Source: Gammaproteobacteria bacterium (lineage in GTDB: Bacteria > Pseudomonadota > Gammaproteobacteria > UBA4575). Taken from it: a stretch of 64,000 nt of DNA. Below the pieces are notes generated by a model. That model worked only from the letters and a program-made list of their open reading frames with translations, was not told where the DNA came from and searched no databases. The stretch lies in the NCBI GenBank assembly GCA_011523795.1, contig WTFY01000010.1, positions 124,001 through 188,000 of the forward strand, given 5' to 3'. The position numbers were made by a program, and so were the translations under genes. Shown in pieces: positions 30,268 to 59,370 of the stretch; position 1 is the first letter of the stretch, and each line of letters opens with the position of its first letter.

Positions 30268-31122
30268 CTATTCCCGGAGCGTGCCGAAAACGCCTCGGAG
30301 TCGACCCTGCTCAAACTTGCCGGCCGCCCCCTCATGCTCATCACCGTAAAATGCACCGTCAATGAAATCCGACCCGTTTTCATGATGAAACGCACCATCT
30401 ACGATATCCAGCCCCCGCCACGCCATGTTGCTGTGACCTTCCGTCAAGTTCGTGAAGTCCACATCAAGTGTGGCGGAACCAAAGTCGGCCTCAAGTCGCA
30501 CGTCGCCGCCTGCCGGTGTACCGAGAGAATCTTCATTTTTGTCATACGCGCGCAGGCTGCCTGACCACACCGCTGAACCACTCGCCGGATTCACGCCTGT
30601 AGGTGTGCCTTCGGTTTGCAATGAGTACGGTAGAACTCCGTCGTTGTCATCATGAATTCCGACTCGGAACAGGGTTTGGCCTCCTCGACGCGCCCAGAAG
30701 CCCCAGTTATCAAAAGAATAGCTTGTTCCTGCCCTGAGAAACTCTCCCTGTTCAGTGAGAGACAGCCCGGAGTCACTGCTAAGGGCGTAGATTTCATCAG
30801 GTAATTCACTGGTACGATCCCCGTCGCCGTCGCCGTCGCCGTCGCCATCCCCATCGCCGTCACCATCGCCATCCCCATCGCCGTCACCATCGCCGTCACC
30901 ATCGCCGTCGCCATCGCCATCGCCGTCGCCGTCGCCGTCGCCATCGCCATCGCCATCGCCGTCGCCGTCGCCATCGCCATCGCCATCCCCGGGAGATGTA
31001 GACGAAGGGGGTGATGTAGACGTCCCGCTTCCTCCACCTCCTCCACCTCCTCCACCTCCACAACTGGTAGTGAGGAATGCAACACAACTCAGGACAAGTA
31101 AAATCAATTTTCGAATAGCCAT
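30268..31122 (-). CDS. Poly-Gly-Asp lipoprotein, TbpB-like (locus A)
   Basis: 284 residues. Lipoprotein signal with lipobox LTTSC (C21), followed by ten glycines, a Ser/Thr/Pro stretch and 29 uninterrupted Gly-Asp pairs. The C-terminal about 165 residues form a beta-rich domain ending FEQGRLRGVFGTLRE, as in transferrin-binding-protein-B-type barrels; FYGDEHEGAAGKF is also typical. The repeat looks like a flexible, highly acidic linker holding the domain away from the membrane. It shares plan and C-terminal pattern with the lipoprotein at 55302. Likely a Slam client, inferred from family. Confidence 0.85.
   Translation of the reverse strand: MAIRKLILLVLSCVAFLTTSCGGGGGGGGGGSGTSTSPPSSTSPGDGDGDGDGDGDGDGDGDGDGDGDGDGDGDGDGDGDGDGDGDGDGDGDGDGDGDGDGDRTSELPDEIYALSSDSGLSLTEQGEFLRAGTSYSFDNWGFWARRGGQTLFRVGIHDDNDGVLPYSLQTEGTPTGVNPASGSAVWSGSLRAYDKNEDSLGTPAGGDVRLEADFGSATLDVDFTNLTEGHSNMAWRGLDIVDGAFHHENGSDFIDGAFYGDEHEGAAGKFEQGRLRGVFGTLRE
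30817..30990 (-). repeat. 29-unit Gly-Asp codon repeat (hexanucleotide-type)
   Basis: 174 nt of 6-nt units (GGC/GGT/GGG plus GAC/GAT on the coding strand) encode 29 GD pairs. The third positions vary irregularly (GAC and GAT mixed), which suggests the array is not a very recent pure expansion. Unit length is a multiple of three, so changes in copy number would alter linker length but not reading frame. Confidence 0.95.
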
Positions 31123-31532
31123 GGTAGCCTCCAGTGGCGCCAGGAAAATATTTATGAATCAATTCGAGTTTTTGGCGCCCATAAGGGTGTATGCAGGAGG
31201 ACTCAACGGGTCGACCTGATCATCCGCCTATATCTTCATGGCATCCGATGACAATGAGCTATATGAGTTTTGTGATAAAGCCCGGAATATATGAGGTATG
31301 TTTGAACGGTACTGTCAAGAAATATCAGCGCATTCTGCAATTGCTGATGGTGAATGACTGTGCCGTCTTGCTGCACTCAACATTTGTGATAAACGGCAGA
31401 CTTTATAGCAAACATTGATTGTTTTCGGACTAGTCTAGTACCCTAATATTGACAAACCTGCAAGTCGGAAATTTGCACAAGCCCACAAGATGCCGGGTAC
31501 TTGTCTGGTGACCGCAAAGCGACTCGGAGCCA
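31123..31532. other. Divergent intergenic region, locus A
   Basis: 410 nt between the lipoprotein and the dioxygenase gene, AT-rich. It presumably holds both promoters. No strong hexamer pair or RNA structure was recognised. Confidence 0.4.
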
Positions 31533-32213
31533 GTGCGCAACGCTTGCCCAGTCTCGATAGTGAAAGCTGAAGGGGTAAATATCAGTCAGGCACAAAGTGA
31601 AGGTACCGTGAACTACTTTACAAAAATTAATGAGCAGGTAGACGTCAGTCCGCTACTGGGAGAACTGGACAGGTTCCCGGAAATGTGGCTTGCAGATACA
31701 AGCCGTCAACGGAAAATTCGCTGCCAGCGAAATACACAGAACATATTCCTGCGTGCAGCCAAAAAGCCTTTGCCACCCGGTGCGAAGAATGCTAACGATG
31801 TACATGGAGTTCGTTCCATGCCTGGGGCGAAAAAGTTTCCCTGTACACTGGAGTTCTGCGAGAGCGTCGCAAAAGAGCTTGATGCAGCACTCGGTCGTGC
31901 AACACTGGTAAAACTGTTACCTGGAAGCCAAGTCTATCCGCATGTTGACACGGGTTCGTATTATCGAATCAGGGACCGCTTGCATCTCGTTCTGAAAAGC
32001 ATCGGAGGAAGCCTGCTTGGAGTCGAGGATGAAACTGTGAGAATGCGAGAGGGAGAACTCTGGGTGATGGACAACAAGAAGCTGCATTGGGCAAGAAACC
32101 CGTCCGACAAGCCGCGTATACACCTGATTTTCGATCTCCTCCCCGCACCGGGACGTGGCTTTTACGCTTACCCGCAAACCGATACGCAATGCAGTGCCAG
32201 TGTTTTCGGATGA
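31533..32213 (+). CDS. Aspartyl/asparaginyl beta-hydroxylase-like 2-oxoglutarate dioxygenase
   Basis: About 226 residues. The PF05118 Fe(II)/2-oxoglutarate core is visible: LVKLLPGSQVYPHVDTGSYY (metal H..D at about YPHVD), RLHLVLKS, GELWVMDNKKLHWARN (second metal His) and PRIHLIFDL (2OG Arg). These enzymes hydroxylate Asp/Asn residues or free amino acids such as proline. The GTG start at 31533 gives the longest form; a GTG at 31608 preceded by GAAGG would give 201 residues and fits the domain better. Next to a GD-repeat lipoprotein and a toroid-like gene. Confidence 0.85.
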   Translation: MRNACPVSIVKAEGVNISQAQSEGTVNYFTKINEQVDVSPLLGELDRFPEMWLADTSRQRKIRCQRNTQNIFLRAAKKPLPPGAKNANDVHGVRSMPGAKKFPCTLEFCESVAKELDAALGRATLVKLLPGSQVYPHVDTGSYYRIRDRLHLVLKSIGGSLLGVEDETVRMREGELWVMDNKKLHWARNPSDKPRIHLIFDLLPAPGRGFYAYPQTDTQCSASVFG

Positions 32214-32283
32214 GTTATCGAGGCATCCGTCCAGGGACCTGGTGAGATTGCCGCATTACCGCATCGTCCGCCGCGGAGCATGA

Positions 32284-33894
32284 CTATCCGGCAGGTTTCA
32301 GGCGGGACATCGTGCGGCGAAGTGCTCCGGTTATACCGCCGGTATCGGGCAGCTTGTCAAACTTGATGGGACGCTGGATCTTGACGGCAGCGAGCAGGGC
32401 ATGGGCCGCAGAGTCCACTCGCACCGGGTTGTCGTAAGCCTCGGTACGCAGCGCACCGAGAACACGGTTCTTCTTGGAGATGTAGAAGGTATCGTTCTGA
32501 TCGCGAAACTGCAGTTGTCGCAATGACCGCAGCCCGCGCTGTATGGCCAGTTCATAGACGTCATGGCGGGTGTTGTCCCCAAGGGCTTGAGCCAGGGCCA
32601 CGGCATCGGCCAGCCCTTCCAGGTACACCCCGGTTGATGCCGCATGCGGTGGTCCGAAATCCGGGCGGCCCGGGTTGTAGAATCGTCCGAGCAGGTCAGG
32701 AGGCAACCCGTCCGACTGCTGCATCGACAGCAGCCAGTCGTTCATTTCCAGCACGAACTTTGCGAATTCGCGCCGGCCGGAGTGCGCAAACAGCAGGGTG
32801 CAGGCTTGCGTATGCCAGGGCACGAAGGCCGGGTTTCGTTTCTGAAGGTGCTTTTTGCGGCAACATTTGAATGCGGCCAGACACTGCTCCAGCGTGGGCG
32901 CGAAGCTTTCTCCCCGGTGTAATGCTGCGGCCCAGAACAGCAGAGCCTCTCCGGAATAAAAGTTCCAGTTCTCGCCATCGCGCTCGGCCGGGAAGAAGAA
33001 TGTCCGGAATCCGTTCTTGTCGTCGGCCATGGATTCGATGCCTGCGGCAAGCTTGGCCAGCTCCTGGGTAAACTCTGCCCGTGCCGGACTTTCCATGATC
33101 GCAAGTGCCGCGAGGGCCGCCGCACCCAGCTTGGCCCCGGTGTTTTCCACGATGGCGCCCCGCCCCTTGCCGATGTCCTTGAAGTAGCGTTTCAGGTTGA
33201 AGCGCAGGTTTCGCTGCGCGGCATCCAGCAGGGACTGGTTTGCGTTCAGCTCTCCCAGTCGCGTGATGGCCAGCGTCCCCAGAAACCGTCGAATGGCATT
33301 GTCAGCCGCTGACCCCAAGCCCCGGCTCGGCCAGTACTTGTACGGCAATGCACCGTCATTGGACATGTTTCGCAAGAACCACTGCCCGATATCATTGGCC
33401 AGTGCCGCCGCAGGACCCGGCTTGCCGTCCGTTGCCTGCTCTACCAGGGTGGACCCTCGATACAGGGCGACAGGCTTTGCATTTTTCCTGCCCGGGATCA
33501 GGAACTGCTGACCAGTGAAGGACCGCAGCTTGCCGCTTGCGAGAAACTCGTCCAGGCTGGCACCTTTCTTTTCCAGGAAGCCTTCCAGTGCCCGCTGAAA
33601 GCTGGAATTCGCGGCAATCATCCGTGTCGGGGCAAAGCGGACGACTTCTCCCTGGAAGGTCGCTTCCATGCCCAGGATGCCCCGCACGCGGTTGCAGAAC
33701 ACACGGGAGAACTGCGTCGTGTCCACGGGGTCAAACCTTTCAGCGATGCAGACCTCGATCGCATCCGTGGGGCGGGCGCGGATGCGCTTGCGCAGGTCCT
33801 TCAGGGGAACGCTGGGAATCCAGCCGCTGGACCGTGCCACGCCGTTTCTGCGTATGCAATACCAGGTCAGGGTGTCAGGAGTCATGCTGCCCAT
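32284..33894 (-). CDS. Conserved uncharacterised 536-residue toroid-like protein (paralogue A)
   Basis: 536 residues, no signal peptide or membrane segment. I recognise no named family. The N-terminal about 130 residues (TWYCIRRNGVARSSGW, IEVCIAERFDPVDTTQFS, CNRVRGILGMEA) form a separate beta-containing domain vaguely like AMMECR1. The C-terminal part (about 170-510) consists of paired helices with DGALPYKYWPS, DNAIRRFLGT, NWNFYSGEALLFW and FVPWHTQACTLLF, suggesting an alpha/alpha toroid as in glycosidase- or cyclase-type folds. It shares most of its sequence with the gene at 57757 (about three quarters identical by eye in the central part). The start MGS is conserved between copies. Probably cytoplasmic. 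Confidence 0.85.
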   Translation of the reverse strand: MGSMTPDTLTWYCIRRNGVARSSGWIPSVPLKDLRKRIRARPTDAIEVCIAERFDPVDTTQFSRVFCNRVRGILGMEATFQGEVVRFAPTRMIAANSSFQRALEGFLEKKGASLDEFLASGKLRSFTGQQFLIPGRKNAKPVALYRGSTLVEQATDGKPGPAAALANDIGQWFLRNMSNDGALPYKYWPSRGLGSAADNAIRRFLGTLAITRLGELNANQSLLDAAQRNLRFNLKRYFKDIGKGRGAIVENTGAKLGAAALAALAIMESPARAEFTQELAKLAAGIESMADDKNGFRTFFFPAERDGENWNFYSGEALLFWAAALHRGESFAPTLEQCLAAFKCCRKKHLQKRNPAFVPWHTQACTLLFAHSGRREFAKFVLEMNDWLLSMQQSDGLPPDLLGRFYNPGRPDFGPPHAASTGVYLEGLADAVALAQALGDNTRHDVYELAIQRGLRSLRQLQFRDQNDTFYISKKNRVLGALRTEAYDNPVRVDSAAHALLAAVKIQRPIKFDKLPDTGGITGALRRTMSRLKPAG

Positions 33895-34272
33895 CAATTC
33901 AGTGTCGTGATTCCGGTCCGGACATGTCTGTCTGCTGAACGCCTGAGGGATGCCCGTGCCTCTGCGGCTTCAGCCTTGTGTGTCGGGCAAACCAACCGGG
34001 CTACAGGTAGCGATTGTGCATGCCCTGCAGCGTGTCTGCAAGATTAGGGCGATATCATACATTGCGGACCCATACTGAGTTGAGGGACGCAGGGTGCAAA
34101 ATCCACAGCATCCAAAACCAACCAATCTGTGAACCCATCTGGCAACCCCAAATACAGCAACTTTTAAACGCAATCAAACACGCGTATACGCAAAGATAAT
34201 TGCGTATATAGTTGATAATTGCGCATATAAGTGGTTTAATTGCGCATAGATCTGATCGTGAGGGTGAATGCA
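33895..34272. other. Intergenic region upstream of fic
   Basis: 378 nt between two divergent genes. It holds the TTGCGCATATA repeats described separately, and otherwise nothing recognised. Confidence 0.5.
34182..34248. promoter_or_regulatory. Four-copy GCGTATA/GCGCATATA operator cluster upstream of fic
   Basis: AATTGCG begins at 34198, 34217 and 34238 (steps of 19 and 21 nt), each followed by TATATA, CATATAA or CATAG. A fourth, inverted copy overlaps the perfect palindrome GCGTATACGC (34182-34191). The spacing of about two helical turns puts all copies on one DNA face. The cluster ends about 25 nt before the preferred fic start and probably overlaps its promoter. The Fic protein has an N-terminal winged-helix domain, so autoregulation is a reasonable inference. 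Confidence 0.6.
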
Positions 34273-35694
34273 GTGGCGAAGCCCATGCCAGAGCAGGAAT
34301 TGAAGGCTATCGAAGCCGTGGTGTCCGCACATCCTGAGGGTATTGCTATCCAGGATATCCAACGAGCGCTGGAAGGGGAGATCGTCCTTCGCACCCTTCA
34401 ATACCGCCTCAAGCACCTGGTGGACGAAGGTCGCCTTGTCAAAGAGGGCATGAGGCGCTGGGCCAGGTATCTACCACCTCCTGATGAGCACGAAGGCAAG
34501 GCACTCGGCGTGCCCGGAGAAGAACTGGCGGGCGAAGTGCCCATTTCAAGGCCTGCCGCCGAAATCCTGAAACATGTCCGCAACCCTGTTCGTTCCCGAA
34601 AGCCTGTAGGGTATGAACGTGCATTTCTTGATGCATACAGGCCCAATGACACTGCCTACCTGTCTGGGGAGGAGCGTGTGCATCTGCAAGAGGTTGGGAC
34701 CCCATCATCCGGGAAACTGCCTGCCGGGACATTTGCCAAGCAGATACTGAACCGGATGCTCATCGATCTGTCATGGAACTCCAGCCGTCTGGAGGGGAAC
34801 ACGTACTCTCTGCTCGATACAAAACGACTGATCGAGTTTGGTGTAGAAGCGGAAGGCAAGGAGCAGCTTGAAGCGCAGATGATCCTGAACCATAAGAACG
34901 CCATCGAATTTCTTGTGGGCTCTGCAAAGGAGATAGGCATTAACCGGCACACGATTCTCAACCTGCACGCCCTGCTGGCAGACAACCTGCTGGCAGATGC
35001 GGAAGCACCCGGCCGTTTACGCTGGATGGAAATTGGGATAGAGAAATCAACGTTTCATCCCCTTGCGGTACCGCAGCTCATCGAGGAATGCTTTGATCAA
35101 ATTCTGGCAACTGCTGATGCGATCACGGATCCCTTCGAACAGGCTTTCTTTTTGATGGTTCAACTGCCGTATTTACAGCCGTTCGATGATGTGAACAAGC
35201 GTGTCTCGCGCCTCGCCGCGAATATACCTTTGATCAAAACAAATATGGCGCCGCTCTCCTTCACCGAGGTTCCGGCCAAAACCTACACGGAAGCGATGCT
35301 CGGCGTTTACGAGCTGAACAAGATTGACTTGCTGAAAGATGTTTTTGTTTGGGCTTACGAGCGCTCCGCATTACGCTCTGCGGCAGTTCGCCAATCCCTG
35401 GGTGAGCCAGATCCTTTCAGACTGAAGTATCGTGCAGCTTTGCGCGACGTCATCCGAACGATCGTGCTTGAGCGGCTGGGTAGAACGGCGACATTGACAT
35501 GCATCGCCGCTTGGGCAGAGAAAAGCGTCAAGGCCGATGAACGCGACCGGTTCAGGGAAGTCGTCGAAAACGAAGTGCTGGGACTTCATGAAGGTAACTT
35601 TGCTCGCTACCAGATCAAGCCTTCGCAGTTCAAGGCATGGCAGGATGTATGGCGAGCCGTGGGAACATCAGGCCGCAGTTTGCCTGAAAAGTGA
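34273..35694 (+). CDS. Fic-family protein with N-terminal winged helix and altered Fic motif
   Basis: 473 residues from the GTG at 34273 (GAGGG eight nt upstream; a TTG at 34240 would lie inside the operator repeats). Residues about 5-65 resemble a winged helix (IQDIQRALEGEIVLRTLQYRLKHLVDEGRLVKEG). The Fic domain holds an inhibitory SxxxEG motif (SSRLEG, about 170-175) like class II Fic proteins. The active-site motif HxFxDGNGRxxR is replaced by LQPFDDVNKRVSR (about 301-313): His to Gln and GNGR to VNKR. AMPylation of the classic kind is therefore doubtful. A terminator follows directly. Confidence 0.87.
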   Translation: MAKPMPEQELKAIEAVVSAHPEGIAIQDIQRALEGEIVLRTLQYRLKHLVDEGRLVKEGMRRWARYLPPPDEHEGKALGVPGEELAGEVPISRPAAEILKHVRNPVRSRKPVGYERAFLDAYRPNDTAYLSGEERVHLQEVGTPSSGKLPAGTFAKQILNRMLIDLSWNSSRLEGNTYSLLDTKRLIEFGVEAEGKEQLEAQMILNHKNAIEFLVGSAKEIGINRHTILNLHALLADNLLADAEAPGRLRWMEIGIEKSTFHPLAVPQLIEECFDQILATADAITDPFEQAFFLMVQLPYLQPFDDVNKRVSRLAANIPLIKTNMAPLSFTEVPAKTYTEAMLGVYELNKIDLLKDVFVWAYERSALRSAAVRQSLGEPDPFRLKYRAALRDVIRTIVLERLGRTATLTCIAAWAEKSVKADERDRFREVVENEVLGLHEGNFARYQIKPSQFKAWQDVWRAVGTSGRSLPEK

Positions 35695-35727
35695 AAAATA
35701 CCGGTGCCCGGGAAAATCCGGCACCAA

Positions 35728-35762
35728 GGACCCAGGAGCTACCAACTCCTGGGTCCGCTTTT
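35728..35762 (+). terminator. Rho-independent terminator after fic
   Basis: A perfect 11-bp stem, GGACCCAGGAG/CTCCTGGGTCC, with a 7-nt loop is followed by GC and four T. It lies 34 nt after the fic stop. Confidence 0.85.
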
Positions 35763-35993
35763 AAGACCAAGACGATACCGTTCAAGACAAGCCCAAAAAA
35801 CGAGGCAGGCCAGTAACCAAGAAGATGCTTCCCAAGATACCCGATACACCGGAGAATATTGCGAAGTCCATCATGCAAGGACCACCGAAGAAGGACTGGA
35901 TTCTTTGAAGGAGAACTGGTAGGAGAGGGACTAGGGTAAATTGGCATACGAGCTACTTTTTTTAGCACAACACCAAATCATACGAGGAAAATC

Positions 35994-37082
35994 ATGAACA
36001 AGTACGCAGTCATCCTGTTTTCACTGTTTCTCTGTGCCTGCGGAGGCGGCGGAAGCAGCAACATTGACTTCCGGCAGACCGCCTTCTCACAAGGTACAGA
36101 GCAGGAGATCACCGGCTTTGGCGAGGTCTCCAGCCGCATTATCGGCCTCACGCAGCAAGTTGGCGGGGCTCCGGTGTTTGGAGAGGGAGGCGACCAGGGT
36201 AGCGTGATGAGTTCCTACACCAACAGCCTTGCGAATGTCGAGAGCTTCGACACATCATTCAGCGGCGAGCAGTTCGTGCTTGAACTCAGCCGCCAGGACG
36301 GCACCTCGTCCATCGTGGATACCGAGACCGCAACCTATGCAGTAGGCACCGATCTCACCCCGGAGCAGAACCTGCTGTCCAACCGCGATGCGGTGCAGGC
36401 CCATACCCTGTCCACCACGGACTCCGCGTGGACCATCATGGGCACGTTCATCGAGTGGGAGGACGATGACTTCACGAACTACCTGGCGGCCGGTTACTGG
36501 ATTCATGCCAATACCGAGACTTCCGGCATAGAGTTCGGGGCTTTCGTGGACAGCCCGGAATACAATCAGGCTGTCACCGTGCCATCCTCAGGCAGAGCCA
36601 CGTACACGGGCCGTTCTGCTGGTTTTTACGTGGCTACCTATGGGCCCGGACTGCCTTATCCTGAAGGTACGACGGTCGCCGGCGAATTCCAGGGCGTGTT
36701 CACGATGCTTGCGGACTTCGACACCAGCATGGTCTCAGGGCAGGTCCGAGACGTGGACTTCACCTACGAGTCCGTACTCTTTCCCGGAGGCCAGGCCCAG
36801 GAGAACCGGACCTTGACCCGCACAGGCTACATGCTGGACATGCCAGCGACCTCGTTCGACAGCGCGGGCCAGTTCTTCGGTGACGACATCACACTCAGTC
36901 ACCCAGCCATCACCTTCGTTGAGACTGGCGGGTCGTGGGCAGGACGCTTTTCGGAAGTGGACGATGCCAACGGCTTCCCCAGGGCGGCCGCTGGCGTACA
37001 CCGCGGTTTCGGGATCAGTGCAAGCGGAAGTACCGCGCTTTTCGTGGGCGCGCACTACGGGTCTACAGAACAGTACGAATAA
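35994..37082 (+). CDS. Surface-type lipoprotein, TbpB-like family
   Basis: 362 residues. Lipoprotein signal with lipobox LCAC (C16) followed by GGGGSS. The body is beta-rich; the central motif ATYTGRSAGFYVATYG resembles ATYTGPATGLYMKK of the lipoprotein at 55302, as does AGYWIHANTETSGIEFGAF. It ends ALFVGAHYG. No GD repeat. Probably exported to the outer membrane and possibly flipped to the surface by Slam. Same strand as fic but separated by a terminator and about 230 nt. Confidence 0.85.
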   Translation: MNKYAVILFSLFLCACGGGGSSNIDFRQTAFSQGTEQEITGFGEVSSRIIGLTQQVGGAPVFGEGGDQGSVMSSYTNSLANVESFDTSFSGEQFVLELSRQDGTSSIVDTETATYAVGTDLTPEQNLLSNRDAVQAHTLSTTDSAWTIMGTFIEWEDDDFTNYLAAGYWIHANTETSGIEFGAFVDSPEYNQAVTVPSSGRATYTGRSAGFYVATYGPGLPYPEGTTVAGEFQGVFTMLADFDTSMVSGQVRDVDFTYESVLFPGGQAQENRTLTRTGYMLDMPATSFDSAGQFFGDDITLSHPAITFVETGGSWAGRFSEVDDANGFPRAAAGVHRGFGISASGSTALFVGAHYGSTEQYE

Positions 37083-37246
37083 GAAGCATGAGGGTCAGGG
37101 TAAACAGGCATACAAGCCCCGATACTTGCTGTCACCAATCTGTCAGATTCCCCGTTACAAAAGTTTGGTTTAGAAAGAATACTGACCTCTTTGTCGGCGA
37201 ATAATAATTGCCGCCTGCGGGTACGCTGAGCGCTATATCTCTGGGG

Positions 37247-38170
37247 TTATGATGCAAGCCAGTCGCGTGCTGGCAGGAAGTCCGTGTAAAGCCTCTCTTC
37301 GGGACTGCCGGGCTCGGGGTGCCAGCCGTATTCCCAGCGAACCCATGGGGGAAGGGACATCAGGATGGATTCCGTGCGCCCGCCGGACTGCAGGCCGAAC
37401 AGGGTGCCCCGGTCGTATACCAGGTTGAACTCGACGTAACGGCCGCGCCGGTACTGCTGGAAGCTGCGCTCCCGTTCACCGAAGTCATGGTCCCTGCGCC
37501 GTGCAACGATCGGCAGGTAGGCCTGCATGAAATGATTCCCCACGCTCTGCAGCAGCCGCAGGTCCTGTTCGAAGTCACCGGTGTTGTAGTCGTCGAAGAA
37601 CAGGCCCCCGATGCCGCGGGCCTCGTTGCGGTGCCGGATGAAAAAGTACTTATCGCAGTTTTTCTTGAACTGCGGATACAGGTCCTCGCCGATGGCATCG
37701 CAGGCCTTTCTTGCCGTGCGGTGCCACTCTACGGCGTCTTCCCTGAACCCGTAGTACGGGGTCAGGTCGAAGCCGCCGCCGAACCACCAGACGGGCAATC
37801 CGCCCGGACTTGCGGCAATGAAAAAGCGCACGTTGCAGTGGGCCGTGGGCACGTACGGGTTCAGCGGGTGTATGACGGTGGATACCCCGGTGGCCTGGAA
37901 GCTGCAACCGGCCAGTTCGGGGCGCAGCCGGCTGGCCGAGGGAGGCAGCTGATCACCGTACACGTGCGAGAAGCCGACGCCCGCCTGCTCGAACACCTGC
38001 CCGTCCCGCAGGATCTGCGTGAGACCGCCGCCGCCGCCGCCGCCCCCGTCGCGCTCCCAGGTGTCTGCCGCAAATACCGCACCCCCGTCCGCCTCTTCCA
38101 GCTGCTTGCAGATTTCTGCCTGCAGGGTCTTGAGGTACTGCAATACCTGCTCGAGGTCCGGCTGCATCAT
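37247..38170 (-). CDS. hemF: Aerobic coproporphyrinogen-III oxidase
   Basis: O2-dependent oxidative decarboxylation of coproporphyrinogen III in haem synthesis. 307 residues (E. coli 299). Visible motifs are [67 protein letters not shown] and [17 protein letters not shown]. The usual glycine loop is extended to an eight-Gly run encoded by repeated GGC. Two adjacent ATG codons (38170 and 38167) are possible starts. It follows tsaC by 4 nt, so it is in a topA-tsaC-hemF run. Confidence 0.97.
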
Positions 38171-38174
38171 GGAC

Positions 38175-38732
38175 CTAGGCTCCCCTGCGATGCACCTTCA
38201 TGCTCGTCAGTTCGCGCACTTCGCTCGCCACCCCGGTTCCTTCCGGGCCTAGGAGCACGTAGTCCAGGTGCGGCCCGAACCAGTCACGAAGCTGCCCGGG
38301 GCCGGTTGCGGTGGGATAGCCGGAGAGGTTTGCGCTGGTGGAGACGAGCGTCTGCACGGCCGCACACAGCGCACCCGCAAGCGGATGCTGCGGGATGCGC
38401 AGGGCCACGCTTTCGTGGTGGCCCGTGATCCAGGCCGGGACGTTCGCGCCGGCGGGCAGCACCCAGGTCGTGGGCGGCCCCGCCAGGGCGGCGGTGATCT
38501 GTTCGCGCTGCCCGGCAGTCAGCGGATGCGTGTAGTGCTGCATGGTCTCGATGTTTTCGGTCAGCAGGATCAGCCCCTTTTCCGCGCCGCGGGATTTCAG
38601 CCACAGGATTTTTTCAACCGCCTTGCGGTTGTGCGGGTCACAGCCCAGTCCCAGCACGGTATCCGTAGAGTAGGCAATGACACCGCCCTGTTCAACCACT
38701 GTCCGGGCTTGCTGGATGCGGCGGGTCAGCAC
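38175..38732 (-). CDS. tsaC: Threonylcarbamoyl-AMP synthase
   Basis: First step of t6A tRNA modification. 185 residues, YrdC fold: [20 protein letters not shown], the KxR..xxKGLILL binding loop, and [13 protein letters not shown] are characteristic of TsaC/Sua5. GTG start. It sits 9 nt after topA and 4 nt before hemF, a common gammaproteobacterial neighbourhood. Confidence 0.95.
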
Positions 38733-38741
38733 GGCGAGGGC

Positions 38742-41102: not shown

Positions 41103-41571
41103 TTCACAGTCCGGGCCAATGCATTCCGCGTCGGTTGTTCAGGGTTGTTTTCACTTGCTGGCGGTTCGGAGCAGGCACATAGGCGGCAAACTAATACGCC
41201 GTTATGATGCTTTTGTAAATAATTTTTGCAACTTTATCGTGTCCGGTTCTGCCAGAGCCTGCACGGCCTGCGCATGCCGCAGCACATGCCCCGGCCCGCC
41301 TGGAGGGCCCATGAGGGAGCGGATGGGCGGGCCTGCCTGACAGGGTGGGTGGCGCTCAAGTATACTGGGACAACCACGCATTTTGATGGAACTGGCCAGA
41401 CTGTTGTTCAGTTTTCAAGGGACACGGGTACCGGGGTTTTGCAAGGCGAGGCCCGGTACGTTCCTTTCGGGGGCGCTGCCGGGGCAGGTGGCAGGATTCA
41501 CCTCCCGGGTACCCGAGGCTGTCGTGACAATCCCGCACCCGAGGGTGCGACCACGAGGGAGGTATGAAGGC
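41103..41571. other. Divergent intergenic region between topA and the barrel paralogues
   Basis: 469 nt. Holds the barrel promoter (41337-41366) and about 200 nt of leader. Several GC-rich short hairpins are possible between 41240 and 41340, but no ncRNA family was recognised. Confidence 0.4.
41337..41366 (+). promoter_or_regulatory. Sigma70-type promoter of beta-barrel paralogue 2
   Basis: CTGACA (41337-41342) and TATACT (41361-41366) with an 18-nt spacer, both 5 of 6 to consensus. The -10 lies in the GTATACTG context shared with the other two paralogues. The predicted leader is about 200 nt, long enough for small-RNA control, as with other outer-membrane protein genes. Confidence 0.55.
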
Positions 41572-42531: not shown

Positions 42532-42564
42532 GCACCCGCTGTAACGGCCGCCAGCCGGTGGGGG

Positions 42565-44343: not shown

Positions 44344-44375
44344 CCCCCTTCCGGGCTCGACTGTTTCAATCCACC

Positions 44376-49436: not shown

Positions 49437-49526
49437 GGAAAAACCCTTGCCCGGCGGCGGCACTTCCCCTATGCTTGCCCGCCTGCAAACCACCTGTCCG
49501 CAGGTTCGGGCAGATGAGGCGTGGCT

Positions 49527-50894
49527 ATGAAGATTATCATTCTGGGGGCCGGCCAGGTCGGCTCCTCGCTGGCGCTGAGCCTTGCGAACGAGGCGCATGA
49601 CATCACCCTGGTGGATTCCGATCCGCGGGTCCTGCGCGAGATACAGGGGCGGGCCGACCTGCGCACCCTGGTCGGCGAGGCCTCGCATCCCACCGTGCTG
49701 GAGCATGCCGGGGCGCAGGATGCCGACATGGTGATCGCGCTGACCGACAGCGACGAGACCAACATGGTCGCCTGCCAGGTCGCCTACTCGCTGTTCCACA
49801 CCCCCACCAAGATCGCGCGCGTGCGTGCGGTGGACTATTTCGGGTACAACAACCTGTTCGTGCAGGAGGCGCTGCCGGTGGACGTGCTGATCAGCCCGGA
49901 ATACCTGATCTCGCAGTCCATCCAGAAACTGATCGAACATCCCAACTCCCTGCAGGTGCGGGACTTCGTGGGCGGGCAGATCAAGCTGCTGGTGATGCGC
50001 GCGGGAAAAACCATGCACGGCAAGCAGCTGAAGGACATCTGGGAGCTGGTGCCGGAGGTCGAGGCCCGGGTGGTGGCCGTGTACCGGGACAACAGGCCGA
50101 TTCCCGCCGTGGACACGACCGTGTTCCAGACGGGGGACGAGGTGTTCTTCCTCACCTCGGCCCGGGACTCGGTGGAGCTGACGTCGCAGCTGCACCGCAC
50201 ACGCAGGCGATACCGGCGCGTGGTACTGGCCGGCGGCGGCAACATCGGCTTTCACCTGGCGGTGTCGCTGGAGAACCGCTACCAGATCAAGCTCATCGAG
50301 CACAACCCGGGACGCGCGAAGTTCCTGTCCGAATCGCTGAACAAGGCCATCGTGCTGCACGGGGATGCGGCCGACGAGGACATGCTGGTCCAGGAGAACA
50401 TCCAGGACACCGACGTCTTCTGCTCGCTCACCAACGATGATGCGGCCAACATCCTGTCGGCCATGCTGGCCAAGCGACGGGGCGCGAAAAAGGTCATGTC
50501 GCTGATCAACCGCCCGAGCTACGTGGACCTGGTGGAGAGCCACGAGATCGACGTGGCGATCTCGCCGCATCACATCACGCTCGGCACGCTGCTGGCGCAC
50601 GTGCGCAAGGGCGACGTGGTGGCGGTGCATTCGCTGCGCAGGGGGGCTGCGGAGGCCATCGAGGCCATCGCCCACGGCGACAAGCACACCTCGAAGGTGG
50701 TCGGCCGCAGGATCGGGGAGATCGACCTGCCGAAGGGAGCCACCATCGGGGCCATCGCGCGCGGCGGCGAGATGATCCTGGCCGACGAGGACCTGGTGAT
50801 CGAGTCCGAGGATCACGTGATCATGTTCCTGGCCGACAAGAGCGGAGTCAAGGAAGCGGAAAAGCTCTTCCAGGTGAGCGCCACGTTCGTATAG
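49527..50894 (+). CDS. trkA: Trk K+ uptake regulator
   Basis: Cytoplasmic NAD-binding RCK subunit gating the TrkH channel. 455 residues, two tandem RCK modules each with a Rossmann motif (GAGQVGSSLA near the start and GGGNIGFHLA after about residue 235). The ATG at 49527 gives the family N-terminus MKIIILGAG; a GTG two codons earlier is possible. Followed by trkH after 34 nt. Confidence 0.96.
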   Translation: MKIIILGAGQVGSSLALSLANEAHDITLVDSDPRVLREIQGRADLRTLVGEASHPTVLEHAGAQDADMVIALTDSDETNMVACQVAYSLFHTPTKIARVRAVDYFGYNNLFVQEALPVDVLISPEYLISQSIQKLIEHPNSLQVRDFVGGQIKLLVMRAGKTMHGKQLKDIWELVPEVEARVVAVYRDNRPIPAVDTTVFQTGDEVFFLTSARDSVELTSQLHRTRRRYRRVVLAGGGNIGFHLAVSLENRYQIKLIEHNPGRAKFLSESLNKAIVLHGDAADEDMLVQENIQDTDVFCSLTNDDAANILSAMLAKRRGAKKVMSLINRPSYVDLVESHEIDVAISPHHITLGTLLAHVRKGDVVAVHSLRRGAAEAIEAIAHGDKHTSKVVGRRIGEIDLPKGATIGAIARGGEMILADEDLVIESEDHVIMFLADKSGVKEAEKLFQVSATFV

Positions 50895-50928
50895 GATCCG
50901 GACCGGCATTTATTCCCGGCAGGCGCAC

Positions 50929-52380
50929 ATGCAGCGACAGGTCGTACAGAGAATACTGGGCATCCTGCTGGGGGGGTTCAGCCTCACCATGCTGCCCCCG
51001 ATCGGGGTGACCCTGCTCTACCCGGACGAGTCGGCGGTTCCGTTCGTGCTCTCCGTGCTCATCACCCTGGCCTGCGCGCTGGCCCTGTGGTACCCGGTGC
51101 GCGACTCAAGGGACGACATGCACCTTCGCGACGGGTTCCTGGTCGTGGTCCTGTTCTGGACCGTGCTCGGGAGCTTCGGGGCGTTGCCCTTCCTGCTCTG
51201 CGAGCCGCTCGCACTCGGCATCACCGATGCGGTGTTCGAGTCCATCTCCGGGCTGACCACGACCGGTGCCACCGTCATCACCCAGCTCGACACCATGCCG
51301 AGATCGATCCTGTTCTACCGCCAGACCCTGCAGTGGCTGGGCGGCATGGGGCTGATCGTGCTGGCCGTGGCGATCCTGCCGATGCTCGGCGTCGGCGGCA
51401 TGCAGCTGTACCAGGCCGAGACCCCGGGGCCGGTCAAGGACAACCGGCTGACGCCGCGCATCAAGGAGACGGCCAAGGCGCTGTGGTTCATCTACCTGCT
51501 GCTGACCGTGATCTGCGCGTTCAGCTACTGGCTGGCCGGCATGAGCCTCTTCGATGCGATTTCGCACAGCTTCTCCACCGTGGCCATCGGCGGGTTTTCC
51601 ACGCACGATGCGAGCCTCGGCTATTTCGACAGTGCCGCGATCGAGACGATCGCGATCGTGTTCATGCTGCTGGCGGGTGCCAACTTCGGGCTGCATTTCA
51701 TCACCTGGAAGTCCCTCAAGGTGCGCCACTACCTGCAGGATGCGGAGTTCAGGACCTACGTCCTGGTGCTGCTTGCGATCACCCTGATCGCGTTCCTGTT
51801 CCTGCGTCTCGCGCAGGTCTATCCCGTGTGGGACCATGCCTTCGGCAAGGCCGTCTTCCACGCGGTGTCGATCGGCACCACCACGGGCTTCACCACGTCC
51901 GAGTTCCACCTGTGGCCGGGCTTCCTGCCGTGGCTGCTGCTGTTTGCAAGTTTCATCGGGGGCTGTGCGGGCTCGACCGGGGGCGGGCTCAAGGTGATCC
52001 GCGTGCTGCTGCTGTTCAAGCAGGGCATGCGGGAGATGATGCGCCTGGTCCACCCGAGCGCGGAGATCGCGGTCAAGATCGGGCCCAGGCCCGTGGACGG
52101 GCGGGTGATGCAGGCGGTGTGGGGATTCTTCTTTGCGTACATCGCCATCTTCATGTTCATGACCCTGCTGCTCATGGCCACCGGGCTCGACGAGACCACG
52201 TCCTTCTCCGCGGTGGCCGCGACCCTCAACAACCTGGGCCCGGGCCTGGGCGAGGTGGGTGCGAACTACACCGGCATCAATGCCCTGAGCAAGTGGATCC
52301 TGTGCCTGGCCATGCTGCTGGGGCGGCTCGAGATCTTCACCCTGCTGGTGGTGCTGACGCCCGCGTTCTGGCGCAGGTAG
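50929..52380 (+). CDS. trkH: Trk K+ uptake channel subunit
   Basis: 483 residues, polytopic. Four pore-loop repeats are visible: ESISGLTTTGATV, SHSFSTVAIGGFSTHD, VSIGTTTGFTTSEF and ATLNNLGPGLGEVGAN. GGxGI-like LQWLGGMGLIVLAVAILPMLGVGGMQLYQAETPGP precedes the first module. Encoded directly after trkA. Confidence 0.96.
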   Translation: MQRQVVQRILGILLGGFSLTMLPPIGVTLLYPDESAVPFVLSVLITLACALALWYPVRDSRDDMHLRDGFLVVVLFWTVLGSFGALPFLLCEPLALGITDAVFESISGLTTTGATVITQLDTMPRSILFYRQTLQWLGGMGLIVLAVAILPMLGVGGMQLYQAETPGPVKDNRLTPRIKETAKALWFIYLLLTVICAFSYWLAGMSLFDAISHSFSTVAIGGFSTHDASLGYFDSAAIETIAIVFMLLAGANFGLHFITWKSLKVRHYLQDAEFRTYVLVLLAITLIAFLFLRLAQVYPVWDHAFGKAVFHAVSIGTTTGFTTSEFHLWPGFLPWLLLFASFIGGCAGSTGGGLKVIRVLLLFKQGMREMMRLVHPSAEIAVKIGPRPVDGRVMQAVWGFFFAYIAIFMFMTLLLMATGLDETTSFSAVAATLNNLGPGLGEVGANYTGINALSKWILCLAMLLGRLEIFTLLVVLTPAFWRR

Positions 52381-52389
52381 GAACCGGTC

Positions 52390-52986
52390 ATGGCCGATGA
52401 ACAGGCCCGCGGGAAGTGGAACCGGAAGTACTCAGAGGCACCCTCGGGAAAGCCGGGCGCGTGCGCGGCACTGAAGGAATACGCCTTCCTGTTGCCTGCA
52501 ACCGGCACGGCCCTGGACCTGGCCTGCGGGCGGGGCGGCAATGCGCTTTTCCTGGCCAGGCGGGGACTGCAGGCGCATGCCTGGGACATCTCCGGGGAGG
52601 CGATCGGGACACTCGTCCGTGAGGCCGAAGCCGAGGGGCTGAGGGTTGTGACTGCAGTGCGGGACGTGCAGGCATCCCCGCCTGCGCCGGGCACCTTCGA
52701 TGTGATCTGTGTCAGCTTTTACCTGGAGCGAGAGATTTGTGGTGCGCTCACCGAGGCATTGAGCCCGGGCGGCCTGCTGTTCTACCAGACCTTCATTCAT
52801 GAGAAGGTTACCGATGAAGGTCCAAGCAATCCTGCGTACCGGCTGGGTGCCAACGAGTTGCTGGGTTTGTTCGCCCCGCTGCATGTACTGGCCTACCGGG
52901 AACTGGGCCGTGTCGGGGATACCGGTCAGGGAGTGCGGGACACGGCTTGGCTGGTGGCGCAGAAGCGCTTAGATCAGACGAAGTGA
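52390..52986 (+). CDS. TehB-like SAM-dependent methyltransferase
   Basis: 198 residues. Motif I ALDLACGRGGNALFLARRG (about 41-59) and FDVICVSFYLER (motif IV) are clear. Similar to TehB/thiopurine-type small-molecule methyltransferases such as tellurite methyltransferase, but no tehA is present. It lies 9 nt after trkH in the same direction and may be in that operon. Confidence 0.88.
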   Translation: MADEQARGKWNRKYSEAPSGKPGACAALKEYAFLLPATGTALDLACGRGGNALFLARRGLQAHAWDISGEAIGTLVREAEAEGLRVVTAVRDVQASPPAPGTFDVICVSFYLEREICGALTEALSPGGLLFYQTFIHEKVTDEGPSNPAYRLGANELLGLFAPLHVLAYRELGRVGDTGQGVRDTAWLVAQKRLDQTK

Positions 52987-53053
52987 TTTGCCGATTGAGA
53001 TACTGAAATGAGAGAGCAGTCGTCCGGGTGTGACAGCCTGACTGAGTTTGCGA

Positions 53054-54403
53054 TTAGAACTGGCGGACGAACCGGACCTCGCCGTTGGTGCGGTCGTAGT
53101 CGTAGATCTGGGCATTGGTATCCCGCTGCTCATGGGTCACCACGAACTGCGGGCTGAAGCCGCGCACGGTCCAGCCGCGGTTGAGCAGTGACAGGCGCAG
53201 GATCTCGGTGCGGTCACTGCGGGGAGACCCGTCTTCCGTGAAGGGAAACCAGTTGCCCTCGTATTCGGTCTTGCGGTATTCACCGCTGAGACCCAGCGAG
53301 AAACCTTTCGGCAGGGCAATGGAGGCACCCAGGCGTGCCCATCGTGAATCGTTGCGCCAGGTCTTGGCGTCCGTGTATTCTTCCGCATACCCGATGGCTC
53401 CATTGGCCTGCAGGATCGGCAGGACTACCCAGGTGCCGTTCAGCGAAATGTCAAAGACCGAGCCGTCAAGGATGTCAACGGTCCGGTATTCACGGTCATA
53501 CCAGGAAGCTCGTCCTGTCAGGAAGATCCGTCGGTTGACCCGGTGCCTGACTTCCGAGCGGGCGCCGAGATCCAGGTAATAAGGAGACGTTGCGAGCCAG
53601 CGCTGGCGTGCGTCGGCCACCAGGCTCACGCTGGTATCCCGGGTTGCCAGCCAAAGAGGTCCAGCATGGGCGGAAAGAAATGTTTGGTCAAACTGGCTGC
53701 CCGGGTATTCCTCCCGGGTGGCATCGCTGCCTAGGCGCAAGCGGAGGCGATTCCCCAGCGGGTGCAGGTACTCACCTCCTGTCCACAGGGAGATGCCCAC
53801 GCCTGAGCGCCTGGGTTCATCCGCATCACGACGGAAAGGTAAGCCAAAAATGTTGATGATGTCAGAGTCCGAGGTCCTGCCAATGTTGGTGCTGGGGGTC
53901 ACAGCTGCACCCAGATACATGGACCATCGCCGACGGGCACGAATCTCGTTCAGGAATCGCTGGACGTTGGCAACAACCGGGTCCGGTGGCTTGCCGGCCA
54001 GAACGCGTTCAAAGTGCTTGCGTGCCAGGCTGTCTTCCTTCTTGTAGAAGAATGCGCGGGCAAGTTCCAGGCGTACGCGTTCCAGATTGGGCTGGTCAAT
54101 TAGGATTTTGTGAAGGGCTGCAATGGCCTCGTCAAGCAGCGACTTTTGTTCTTCCTCTGTCTCAGCCAATCGGGAACTTTCGATGGCCGCCAGAGCACGA
54201 AGAAAGTGAATATTGGTGTGTTCCGGATAAGTCTTGGCCACCGGGCGCAGGATGGCCAGTGCCTCGTTGAACTTGCCGGCATTTATCAAAGCACGGGCCT
54301 CGCTTGTCTCCGGCATCGCTTCGTCCGCATGCGCTGGTACAGCGACAAGCATGAGCAACAGCACTGCAGCAACGCACACACTGCAGGTCGCCTTTCTTAT
54401 CAT
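53054..54403 (-). CDS. Surface lipoprotein assembly modifier (Slam)-like outer-membrane protein
   Basis: 449 residues with signal peptide (VAVPAHA-DE). An N-terminal TPR part (ARALINAGKFNEALAILRPVAK, about residues 35-145) is followed by a DUF560-type beta barrel (RARRRWSMYLGAAVTPSTNI and GGEYLHPLGNRLRLRLG). The end FVRQF carries the outer-membrane-protein terminal Phe. This matches Slam, which moves TbpB-like lipoproteins to the outer leaflet surface. The lipoprotein at 55302 (same strand, ~900 nt upstream) is the likely client; those at 30268 and 35994 are other candidates. Confidence 0.87.
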   Translation of the reverse strand: MIRKATCSVCVAAVLLLMLVAVPAHADEAMPETSEARALINAGKFNEALAILRPVAKTYPEHTNIHFLRALAAIESSRLAETEEEQKSLLDEAIAALHKILIDQPNLERVRLELARAFFYKKEDSLARKHFERVLAGKPPDPVVANVQRFLNEIRARRRWSMYLGAAVTPSTNIGRTSDSDIINIFGLPFRRDADEPRRSGVGISLWTGGEYLHPLGNRLRLRLGSDATREEYPGSQFDQTFLSAHAGPLWLATRDTSVSLVADARQRWLATSPYYLDLGARSEVRHRVNRRIFLTGRASWYDREYRTVDILDGSVFDISLNGTWVVLPILQANGAIGYAEEYTDAKTWRNDSRWARLGASIALPKGFSLGLSGEYRKTEYEGNWFPFTEDGSPRSDRTEILRLSLLNRGWTVRGFSPQFVVTHEQRDTNAQIYDYDRTNGEVRFVRQF

Positions 54404-55301
54404 TGTGTCGTGAAGTCCATGGGTCGGGGGAGGTACGCCAAGAGATTGTACACGTAATCGGAAAGAGTTGATATGAATTCAGCCGTTGTCGGTCCGATCC
54501 GGAGCATGCATTATTTGAGAACTAGCCAACCGGATTGCCGTTGCAGTCTATGAAACTTGAAACAGTGCTGCTGACCTTGAGCATCTGTCTAGTCTATATT
54601 TCATGACGGAAAAGAGGGCGGTCAAGATGGGATGTCCTTTTGTTACGCATAGGCCGAAATCTGAAGGAAACTCTGGTTCAACCTTGTTGCAGGGCAGGTT
54701 GGAAAAAAAGAGGGCGACCCGACGATCCCGCGTTGCTCTCTTAGGTCAGGTGTCAGGCTATCAGTAACTGCCTGGGCCGGGCTTGTTTGGCCTGTCTGCT
54801 TGCTCTGGAATTTGGCAACAAGGTATCTGGAATGCTATCCCTGTAGGGTGTAGGCACCATCCGAATTGAAAGTCTTTTTACCGTAGCAGCCCTCATTTCT
54901 TGCTCTTCAGTGACTGTCATGCTTTGTTTTGTACGTTTTCTGCCGCAAGTACATCGAACGAAAGATCAGAATTAGACAAAGATACAGCGAGCCTCACCGT
55001 TACCAGACAATGTTAATTCAAGTGTGAGACAACATGTGCACATCCAAAATGTGCAGAAATTAAACAAGCCTTCTTACGGGTGTAGTTTTACCGTCTACCT
55101 ACATGGGGCGAGGGAGTCTGAGGAAAACGGGGACAGGCAGTTCATGAAGTACATGAATGGCAAAAAAAGCAACCCTGTATGTACAGGGTTGCTTTACATC
55201 AATCGTTAGGGCTGTATTAAAAAAGCGTCTTTTGATCTTGAAAGGACACCGCCCGGGAAATCATACAAACCCGAGCGATATTCTTTCTTCGATGGCCCGA
55301 T
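54404..55301. other. Gene-free AT-rich region, Slam locus
   Basis: About 900 nt, distinctly AT-rich. It contains the lipoprotein terminator (55162-55192) and an imperfect hairpin followed by seven T on the minus strand near 54702-54737, possibly an attenuator upstream of the Slam gene. A 61-codon plus-strand frame at 55024 overlaps the terminator and has no support. No gene or RNA was recognised. Confidence 0.5.
55162..55192 (-). terminator. Rho-independent terminator after the poly-GD lipoprotein
   Basis: GCAACCCTGTA and TACAGGGTTGC form a perfect 11-bp stem with a 2-nt loop, followed on the minus strand by seven T. It lies about 110 nt downstream of the lipoprotein stop, so the lipoprotein and Slam genes have separate transcripts. 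Confidence 0.85.
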
Positions 55302-57152
<1,851 letters not shown>

Positions 57153-57756
57153 TACAACCCCCACGAATCTGTTAGTCTTTTAAGTCTCGGCACTGGTGCC
57201 GTTCCGTAACAAATGGTAACAAGAATTTAGAGTCCTCATCTACACCTATAGCAAAAATTACACACCTACACGCCCATCTTCATACAATATTGCATGAACA
57301 AGGCGCGCCACCCAAGGTTCTTGTTGAATTTGCTCAGTGGAGTTTATAACAGAGTTTTCTGGCTACGCAAGTGAATTTACGTTTTAACTCATATAAATGT
57401 TCAAAATTTGCACTCATTTCCGATTCAGCAATTGAAAGCTGAAACTTGCTTTCATTTTGTAGAACATCTGCGACATAGTCATAGGAAACAAGTTTTCTCC
57501 TGATAAACTCCATTTGATCACTGAGAATTCCTCATCTTCAGTTATCTTACATTATCATTCCTGAGTGTGAACGGGACCTGAAATAACTTTTTTTAATGCT
57601 TTTTCCAAAATGTCAAAATAATCACCATATGAACCTAAGAGTTCGTGAGCGAACATACAGGTTTATCACCAAGATCTTTTAAACGATGTTCTTCAGAGGA
57701 GTTCCGAGTAACTCGTATAATCACGATACCAATTCAGAAAACTAAAAACTGAACTT
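57153..57756. other. AT-rich divergent region, locus B
   Basis: 604 nt, the most AT-rich stretch in the window, between the lipoprotein and toroid paralogue B. No gene, clear hexamer pair or RNA was recognised; it presumably contains both promoters. Confidence 0.45.
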
Positions 57757-59370
57757 ATGGGCAGTGCAACTCCAAACAGCTTGACTTGGTTTTGCGTGCG
57801 ACGTAATGGCGTGGCGCGGTCCAGTGGCTGGATAAACGGTGTGCCATTAAAGAATTTGCGAAAGCGTACCAAGGCACGACCCAGCGATATCGTGGAAGTA
57901 AGTGTTGTAGAAAAGTTCGACCCCGTGGACACGACTCAGTTCTCCCGTGTGTTCTGCAATCGCGTACGTGGCATCCTTGGTATGGAAGTTGTTTTTCGTG
58001 GCAAGGTAATTCGCTTTGCACCGACACACATGATTGCCACTAACCTGAGTTTCCAGCGACTGCTGGAAAGTTTCCTCGAAAAGAAGGGAGCCGGTTTTGA
58101 CGAGTTTTCTGCCGAGGGGCAACTGCGTTCATTTTCAGCCCACCAGTTCCTGCTGCCAGACAGTAAGAAAAAAAAGCCCGTAGACTTGTTCCGAGGTTCA
58201 ACGCTGGTTGAACCAATGTCTTACACTTTATCTGATAGGGCAGAAGCTCTGGCCAATGGAATCGGGCAGTGGTTTATGCAAAACATGGCAGCTGACGGCT
58301 CATTACCCTACAAGTACTGGCCGAGCCAGGGTAAGAACTCGCCTGCGGACAATGCTATTCGCCGGTTCCTGGGGACGTTGGCACTTGCACGCTTGGGTGC
58401 ATTACAGGGAAACCAATCGATGTTGGACGCTGCGCAACGAAACTTGCGTTTCAACCTGAAGCGCTACTTCAAGGACATAGGCGGAGGACGTGGTGCAATC
58501 GTGGAAGGCAGCGAAGCCAAGCTCGGCGCTGCCGCCCTGGCGGGGTTGGCGATCATGGACAGCCCGGAGCGAGAGGAGTTTTCCGAGGAACTAACCATGC
58601 TTGCAGCGGGAATCGAATCACTTGTGGACAATAAACTCGGATTCCGCACGTTCTTCTTTCCCGCTGAACGTGATAGTGATAACTGGAACTTTTATTCAGG
58701 CGAGGCCTTGCTGTTCTGGGCCGAAGCATTACGCCGGGGAGAGCGCTTCGCGCCGACTCTTGAACAATGTGTGAAGGTGTCAAAATGCTGCCGCAAGGTG
58801 CACTTTCAAAAACGAAACCCGGCTTTCGTACCTTGGCATACGCAAGCCTGTACCTCATTGTTTGCGTACTCGGGTCGAAAGGAGTTTGCAAAGTTTGCGC
58901 TTGAGATCAGCGACTGGCTGTTGCCAATGCAGCAATGGGACAATCTGCCACCTGATCTGCCCGGGCGATTCTACAACCCGAGCCAGCCAGACTATGGTCC
59001 TCCGCATGCTGCATCCACGGGGGTGTACATGGAAGGTTTCGCCGACGCGACTGCACTTGCCCGGGCCTTGGGTGACAGTGCCCGCGAGGCTACCTATGGG
59101 CAAGCTCTTCAACGTGGCTTGCGCTCGTTGCGACAATTACAATTTCGTGATCAATACGATACCTATTACATTTCCAAGAAGAACCGGGTACTTGGCGCCC
59201 TGCGTACAGAGGCTTACGATAATGCGGTCCGAGTCGATTCAGCCGCACATGCCCTTCTGGCTGCTGTCAAAATTCTGCGGCCTATGGAGTTTGGGTCGGT
59301 TCAGTCCAAGACCGGCAGCATAGCAGGGGCATTCAGCCGGACTATGTCGCGAATAAAACGCACCAAGTAG
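57757..59370 (+). CDS. Conserved uncharacterised 537-residue toroid-like protein (paralogue B)
   Basis: 537 residues, near-identical in length to paralogue A (536) and highly similar throughout: NGVARSSGWI, VDTTQFSRVFCNRVRGILGM, DGSLPYKYWPS, NLRFNLKRYFKDIG, FRTFFFPAERD, FVPWHTQACTSLF. Domain plan is as described for the copy at 32284. The DNA is clearly less GC-rich than paralogue A at synonymous positions. It is adjacent to a GD-repeat lipoprotein, as is paralogue A. No signal peptide, probably cytoplasmic. Confidence 0.85.
   Translation: MGSATPNSLTWFCVRRNGVARSSGWINGVPLKNLRKRTKARPSDIVEVSVVEKFDPVDTTQFSRVFCNRVRGILGMEVVFRGKVIRFAPTHMIATNLSFQRLLESFLEKKGAGFDEFSAEGQLRSFSAHQFLLPDSKKKKPVDLFRGSTLVEPMSYTLSDRAEALANGIGQWFMQNMAADGSLPYKYWPSQGKNSPADNAIRRFLGTLALARLGALQGNQSMLDAAQRNLRFNLKRYFKDIGGGRGAIVEGSEAKLGAAALAGLAIMDSPEREEFSEELTMLAAGIESLVDNKLGFRTFFFPAERDSDNWNFYSGEALLFWAEALRRGERFAPTLEQCVKVSKCCRKVHFQKRNPAFVPWHTQACTSLFAYSGRKEFAKFALEISDWLLPMQQWDNLPPDLPGRFYNPSQPDYGPPHAASTGVYMEGFADATALARALGDSAREATYGQALQRGLRSLRQLQFRDQYDTYYISKKNRVLGALRTEAYDNAVRVDSAAHALLAAVKILRPMEFGSVQSKTGSIAGAFSRTMSRIKRTK

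Follow-up and report, generated by a model that had tools for sequence, protein, structure and literature searches.

What joins a protein family that carries no recognised name to lipoproteins with a glycine-aspartate repeat? The question is raised by a 64,000-nucleotide stretch of DNA (hereafter the window; positions 124,001-188,000 of contig WTFY01000010.1, assembly GCA_011523795.1, Gammaproteobacteria bacterium, UBA4575), in which two loci, A and B, each hold the gene for a toroid-like protein (toroid) near a lipoprotein gene with a (Gly-Asp)n, or GD, array (Table 1). An earlier reading made without database searches (the sequence-only reading) took this repeated co-location as a sign of a functional link, perhaps cytoplasmic modification or processing connected with surface-lipoprotein display; the genes that it listed for both loci exist, at coordinates that are off by a few codons at most. 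The linkage of the genes, the repeat and the membership of sequence families are observed directly and the folds are predicted; together, they make it probable that the toroid works with a partner oxidase to modify (Gly-Asp)n tracts in exported proteins. We infer that the array is the substrate, that its Asp residues would be hydroxylated and that the product would bind metal or coat the cell surface.

The pairing was first assessed within the window's own genome. The two toroids, which had been described as almost equal in length and strongly similar, share 74% identity across 534 residues, and their genes are the only two copies in the whole 2.07 Mb assembly. A scan of the same genome for (GGNGAY)7 arrays returned exactly two sites, located 0.7 and 1.3 kb from the toroid genes. 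Since the sole two arrays of the genome adjoin its sole two toroid genes, and since 2 of the 369 gammaproteobacterial genomes sampled have (GD)14 arrays, the pairing exceeds chance, and the placing of each toroid beside a GD-repeat lipoprotein is upheld. The toroid gene itself was found in one of the 369 genomes, that of the window, and its interpretation as a widespread gammaproteobacterial housekeeping gene was rejected on that count. The array codons are mixed synonyms; simple slippage would tend toward homogeneous codons. At locus A, the toroid gene is convergent with that of a PF05118 oxygenase, whose subfamily has this single copy in the genome, locus B having no oxygenase of its own. 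A lipoprotein A orthologue with a GD array is also present in the same-genus genome G003 (L004).

The association extends to other phyla. A contig scan gave 12 toroid loci in metagenome-assembled genomes (MAGs) labelled Gammaproteobacteria, Immundisolibacterales, Alphaproteobacteria, Binatia, Pseudomonadales, Acidobacteriota, Gemmatimonadetes and Chloroflexi, the binning of the last two being uncertain because their contigs are shorter than 7 kb. Fifteen close-family loci, most of them from MAGs, were evaluable, i.e. had sequence on the relevant side of the toroid: window locus A, L004 (the same locus as L007), L008-L017 and L102-L104. At all 15, the toroid gene adjoins a PF05118 gene and a GD array lies beside or near the latter. 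The condition that the sequence-only reading named as refuting the link, homologues without such neighbours, was checked and the link was not refuted. Three of these loci (L102-L104) were fetched once the pattern was known, and each conforms to it; their arrays have 83, 68 and 32 units. Array and oxygenase genes are on the same strand in 13 of the 15 loci; five loci have a gap of 42-79 bases between the two, and in others it reaches 2.4 kb. Homologues of a LuxR-type regulator were detected in 12 of the 15 cassettes (not at L013, L014 and L016), and this membrane protein probably regulates the cassette. Outside the cassette, no gene family was found recurring in the flanks of most loci. The divergence of the toroid is correlated with that of the oxygenase (r = 0.90, Mantel p = 2e-4, 15 loci), a result that shared descent of whole cassettes would produce, and with that of the regulator (r = 0.80, 11 loci). 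Toroid identity between phyla is roughly 56-76%, which points to horizontal spread of the cassette among them. MAG prefixes such as COS and APA fit sponge species listed in PMC8163846 (Coscinoderma, Aplysina), and the hosts, to judge from the MAG names, are apparently sponge symbionts.

The contigs of L009, L011, L013, L015 and L017 stop within the array or the array gene, with only about six GD units visible at the contig end in L009 and L017, as may be expected of repeats that break assembly. Such contig ends, together with the movement of the cassette between phyla, would also suit the view that the array is a hotspot of recombination or assembly, where contigs tend to join or an oxygenase-toroid island unrelated to it tends to insert. 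This explanation is largely refuted and we regard it as highly improbable: L010, L014, L102 and L103 have all three elements intact on large contigs or chromosomes, the strand agreement and the short gaps described above speak against it, no other gene family recurs in the flanks, and the association holds at 30-38% toroid identity despite a changed gene order.

The array is common to carrier proteins of otherwise differing architecture. The carrier of L012 consists of a lipobox followed by little besides the array, and that of L015 has a similar lipobox-like Cys. Those of L008, L010, L102, L103 and L104 start with a signal peptide that has no lipobox; an A-x-A-like junction stands right before the array in L010, L102 and L103, with a similar arrangement in L008 and L104, and QEARAD or QEAH precedes the array in several signal-peptide carriers. 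Further domains follow the array in L014, L104 and both window lipoproteins, and in the 859-residue carrier of L016 the array occupies the extreme C-terminus, which ends GDGDDDDDDDD. The array proteins of L009, L017, L102 and L103 have related C-terminal tails, e.g. RDELARRLRNDQF and RDDLARRLRGDRF, a possible recognition or sorting signal.

This diversity bears on the narrower picture drawn in the sequence-only reading, i.e. an accessory system for Slam-dependent surface-lipoprotein display in which the GD linker marks the lipoprotein. The lipoproteins at both window loci, the Slam-like gene near locus B and the lipobox-like Cys of the L012 and L015 array proteins all agree with it. We nevertheless find it quite improbable, as a Slam relative was seen at window locus B and at none of the other loci tested, which led to the rejection of Slam as a cassette member and recurrent neighbour, as five of the carriers named above have a signal peptide without a lipobox, and as the arrays of two distant homologues adjoin exporters of type I (Thioclava) and of the C39 type (Rhizobium). 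Nor was a TbpB-type C-terminus, attributed to both window lipoproteins, borne out: the PF01298 match of lipoprotein A is below threshold (24.7 bits against a cut-off of 26), and a search of lipoprotein B with this profile gave no match. The proposed functional link has thus obtained strong genetic support as modification of GD proteins, whereas its tie to surface-lipoprotein display is not general.

Sequence searches of Pfam, NCBIfam and the PDB, including one of the PDB with a toroid profile, gave no significant match to the toroids, which belong to an undescribed family of putative enzymes. The earlier statement that no family could be recognised therefore stands at the level of sequence, whereas the predicted structure does place the protein. 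An AlphaFold2 model of toroid B built with 13 homologues had a predicted local distance difference test score (pLDDT) of 73 and a predicted template modelling score of 0.69, and Foldseek comparison of its C-terminal part with the PDB returned (alpha/alpha)6 barrels (unsaturated glucuronyl hydrolases, GH76 and sugar epimerases). The N-terminal domain, modelled alone (pLDDT 80), had 1zq7, 1vaj and 1wsc as its solely significant PDB structure matches (E 2e-5 to 6e-4; next 0.2), which we take to be AMMECR1-family proteins. The toroid is thus predicted to combine, in one fused protein, a domain of AMMECR1 fold with an (alpha/alpha)6 barrel. The first assignment comes from predicted structure and a distant homologue (L105, below), as the N-terminal domain had no Pfam match to AMMECR1 at E values up to 10 and an hhalign probability below 1% against AMMECR1 proteins of relatives.

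Compared with the AMMECR1 family (AmmeMemoRadiSam protein A), whose fold the N-terminal domain is predicted to share, the close-family toroids lack a sequence-level match and the RGCIG segment of AMMECR1 relatives, are fused to the barrel and have no Memo gene seen with them. Similarly, the C-terminal 370 residues have a predicted fold in common with (alpha/alpha)6 enzymes such as GH88/GH105, GH76 and sugar 2-epimerases, but differ from them in gene context and in having no family-level sequence match. Among the barrel residues, R202, Y313, E316, H361, H417, E426, R492 and D494 are examples of high conservation. A literature search combining AMMECR1 with terms for ribosomally synthesised and post-translationally modified peptides (RiPPs) turned up no AMMECR1 work. 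No toroid relatives were found in the viral contigs and phages searched; the best viral structural match was BFVD A0A5B8IQW3, a ChoanoV1 Memo-like protein of 929 residues (E 2.8e-5 over 619 columns, with low template modelling scores), which may share the AMMECR1-plus-barrel architecture.

The toroids of the close family are partnered by the PF05118 oxygenase, whose locus A copy scores 64.8 bits with that profile (cut-off 22.6). Substrates of PF05118 enzymes are Asp or Asn, which are hydroxylated at the beta carbon, or else lipid A and amino acids. H137, D139, H185 and R195 are invariant in 12 oxygenase homologues; the first three are presumably the Fe(II) ligands and R195 the 2-oxoglutarate-binding Arg. 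The cassette enzyme resembles AspH, LpxO and cis-proline hydroxylase in its family match and in the HxD...H plus Arg pattern, and differs from the known enzymes as a distinct subfamily tied to GD arrays and not to EGF domains or lipid A genes. Because PF05118 enzymes act on the beta carbon of Asp and Asn, the modification to be expected first in the close family would be beta-hydroxyaspartate, an expectation drawn from the family membership of the oxygenase. A PF05118 relative of 41% identity is located on a Sulfitobacter plasmid (NZ_CP040754.1, L108:8983-9585) beside a DUF1611 gene and an ATP-binding cassette (ABC) transporter; no GD run of four or more units was found within 9 kb, and this locus, which gives the oxygenase subfamily a different setting, was not counted as a further cassette.

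The distant relatives form a small sample. Two diverged toroids were found in a plasmid collection, in Thioclava electrotropha pTElox9 (38% identity) and Rhizobium lusitanum p_2 (30%). The Thioclava toroid gene adjoins a Mur-ligase-family gene. Elsewhere on the plasmid, an open frame that encodes 55 GD units lies upstream of genes for TolC and type I secretion, a position that makes its product a probable type I secretion substrate. This array gene is uncalled in record NZ_CP053563.1 (L109:8746-9075, about 18745-19074 of the record), where an antisense open reading frame (ORF) overlaps it and only a truncated downstream ORF is annotated. In Rhizobium, a 73-residue ORF encodes a double-glycine leader, ...LEEELNQVAGG, followed by the GD core DGDGDGDGDGDGDGDGDDD; then come an uncharacterised gene, a radical S-adenosylmethionine (SAM) gene and the toroid gene, and after these HlyD and an ABC exporter whose Peptidase_C39 domain scores 108.6 bits against a cut-off of 22. 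The opposite strand nearby encodes a 2-oxoglutarate oxygenase from a different family. Neither the GD core nor the toroid matched an NCBIfam model. The Rhizobium locus resembles RiPP pathways of the NHLP/bacteriocin type, with double-glycine leaders and C39 exporters, in uniting a leader-core ORF, modifying enzymes and a Peptidase_C39 exporter in one operon. A small leader-core precursor beside candidate modifying enzymes, as expected of RiPPs, is present in Rhizobium, whereas the window candidates are whole lipoproteins, the arrays being parts of large proteins with no peptidase exporter found beside them. As no PF05118-type relative was found in the Thioclava or the Rhizobium neighbourhood, the toroid and GD array appear to be the older association and the oxidase partner appears to vary.

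A third distant homologue (L105; blastp E 1e-15) is a 1049-residue frame that unites a phosphoribosyltransferase-like part with a true AMMECR1 domain (54.7 bits, cut-off 25), which precedes the toroid. It is flanked on one side by a VEVAPEI-repeat protein and on the other by a RiPP-maturation radical SAM enzyme (TIGR03975, 549.9 bits, cut-off 281.85), and the region (L105:535-6605, G445:C85) possibly encodes a second repeat-peptide pathway.

Taken as a pathway, modification of the arrays would proceed as follows. The GD-array protein would be made ribosomally, and before export its array would be acted upon by the AMMECR1-(alpha/alpha)6 toroid and the partner oxidase, i.e. the Fe(II)/2-oxoglutarate oxygenase in the close family, expected to beta-hydroxylate the Asp residues, and probably the radical SAM enzyme in Rhizobium. 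The modified array would then leave by the route of its carrier: through Sec, for carriers with either a lipobox or a plain signal peptide, through type I secretion, or through an ABC exporter whose C39 peptidase cleaves after Gly-Gly. The outcome would be densely packed carboxylates, probably hydroxylated, at the cell surface or beyond it. Locus B would be a second substrate-toroid pair that borrows the locus A oxygenase in trans.

Several observations weigh against this reading. The array of locus B is short (8 units) and has no adjacent oxygenase, and that of Thioclava is about 11 kb from its toroid. The gammaproteobacterial genome G326 encodes a secreted-looking protein with about 31 GD units (L075:84-1694, G326:C26) and G002 has 7 GD units inside an autotransporter, both without the cassette (neither toroid nor oxygenase in the former), and a GD array alone was accordingly rejected as a sufficient cassette marker. 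In addition, PF05118 includes hydroxylases of lipid A and of free amino acids, the barrel finds its closest structural counterparts in sugar-active enzymes, and the oxygenase has a weak NCBIfam match to LpxO. It could be argued from the last two points, and from the GD stalks without a cassette, that toroid and oxygenase act as a glycosidase or epimerase barrel and an LpxO-like enzyme on a surface glycan or lipid, the array being the flexible acidic stalk of a protein from the same island. We consider this unlikely, as it leaves unexplained why unrelated carriers have the array alone in common, and why in Rhizobium the array forms the core of a 73-residue leader peptide beside radical SAM and C39-exporter genes.

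If modification of GD tracts is accepted, its chemistry may go further than hydroxylation. Asp-Gly is a classic aspartimide site, which makes imide or isopeptide chemistry by the toroid a live alternative. It is conceivable, though we hold it somewhat less than probable, that poly(Gly-Asp) represents a new class of ribosomal biopolymer, produced by a novel toroid reaction (e.g. aspartimide or isopeptide formation at Asp-Gly, or acylation of Asp side chains), then hydroxylated and exported for metal capture or as a protective coat of symbionts. Repeated beta-hydroxyaspartate would be expected to be a good chelator of iron or calcium. The papers that a literature search for GDGDGDGD returned had unrelated titles. 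The Ser-Asp repeat adhesins (Sdr/Clf) likewise have a long acidic dipeptide repeat on a surface protein, and GD arrays give weak low-complexity NCBIfam matches. The Ser residues of those repeats are glycosylated, whereas Gly-Asp has no hydroxyl group unless hydroxylated, and the modifying enzymes are unrelated. The enzyme architecture predicted here is now tied to one candidate peptide substrate, (Gly-Asp)n, and a GD array near a toroid provides a handle for genome mining. Should the proposal be true, the chemistry of an AMMECR1-type protein would become directly testable, with T. electrotropha and R. lusitanum as cultured relatives, and a common surface or secreted modification would be spread over several phyla, apparently among sponge symbionts.

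Table 1. Features of loci A and B, in window coordinates.
Feature	Position	Strand	Remark
LuxR-type DNA-binding protein, N-terminal membrane segment	29569-30132	+	Locus A; probable cassette regulator
Lipoprotein A: lipobox, (GD)29 array, weak TbpB-type C-terminal barrel	30268-31122	-	Proposed substrate
GD array A: 29 uninterrupted GGN GAY units, mixed synonymous codons	30817-30990	-	
PF05118 Asp/Asn hydroxylase-like Fe(II)/2-oxoglutarate oxygenase, 226 residues	31533-32213	+	Locus A
Toroid A, 536 residues from ATG	32284-33894 (33897 if TTG start)	-	Predicted AMMECR1-fold domain + (alpha/alpha)6 barrel; fold predicted on paralogue B
SlipAM/Slam-like outer-membrane protein	53054-54403	-	Near locus B; PF04575, 75.2 bits; not a conserved cassette member
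Lipoprotein B: lipobox, (GD)8 array, Ala-rich region, C-terminal part without Pfam match	55302-57164	-	Proposed second substrate
GD array B: 8 units	56994-57041	-	
Toroid B, 537 residues, paralogue of toroid A	57757-59370	+	Divergent from lipoprotein B

The LuxR-type protein of locus A has a hydrophobic segment near residue 43 and matches NF047608 with 59.5 bits, below the curated cut-off of 200. In the same-genus assembly G004, in which the toroid and the oxygenase were looked for and neither was found, a lipoprotein A orthologue with at least 8 GD units lies at a contig end (G004:C144, L051:6595-6642). Beyond the right end of the window, a further relative of lipoprotein A (L006:3851-4687) has a sub-threshold TbpB-type match and neither a GD array nor an adjacent toroid. 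Just past toroid A, the window encodes a Fic/DOC-family protein (34240-35694; PF02661, 38.8 bits).

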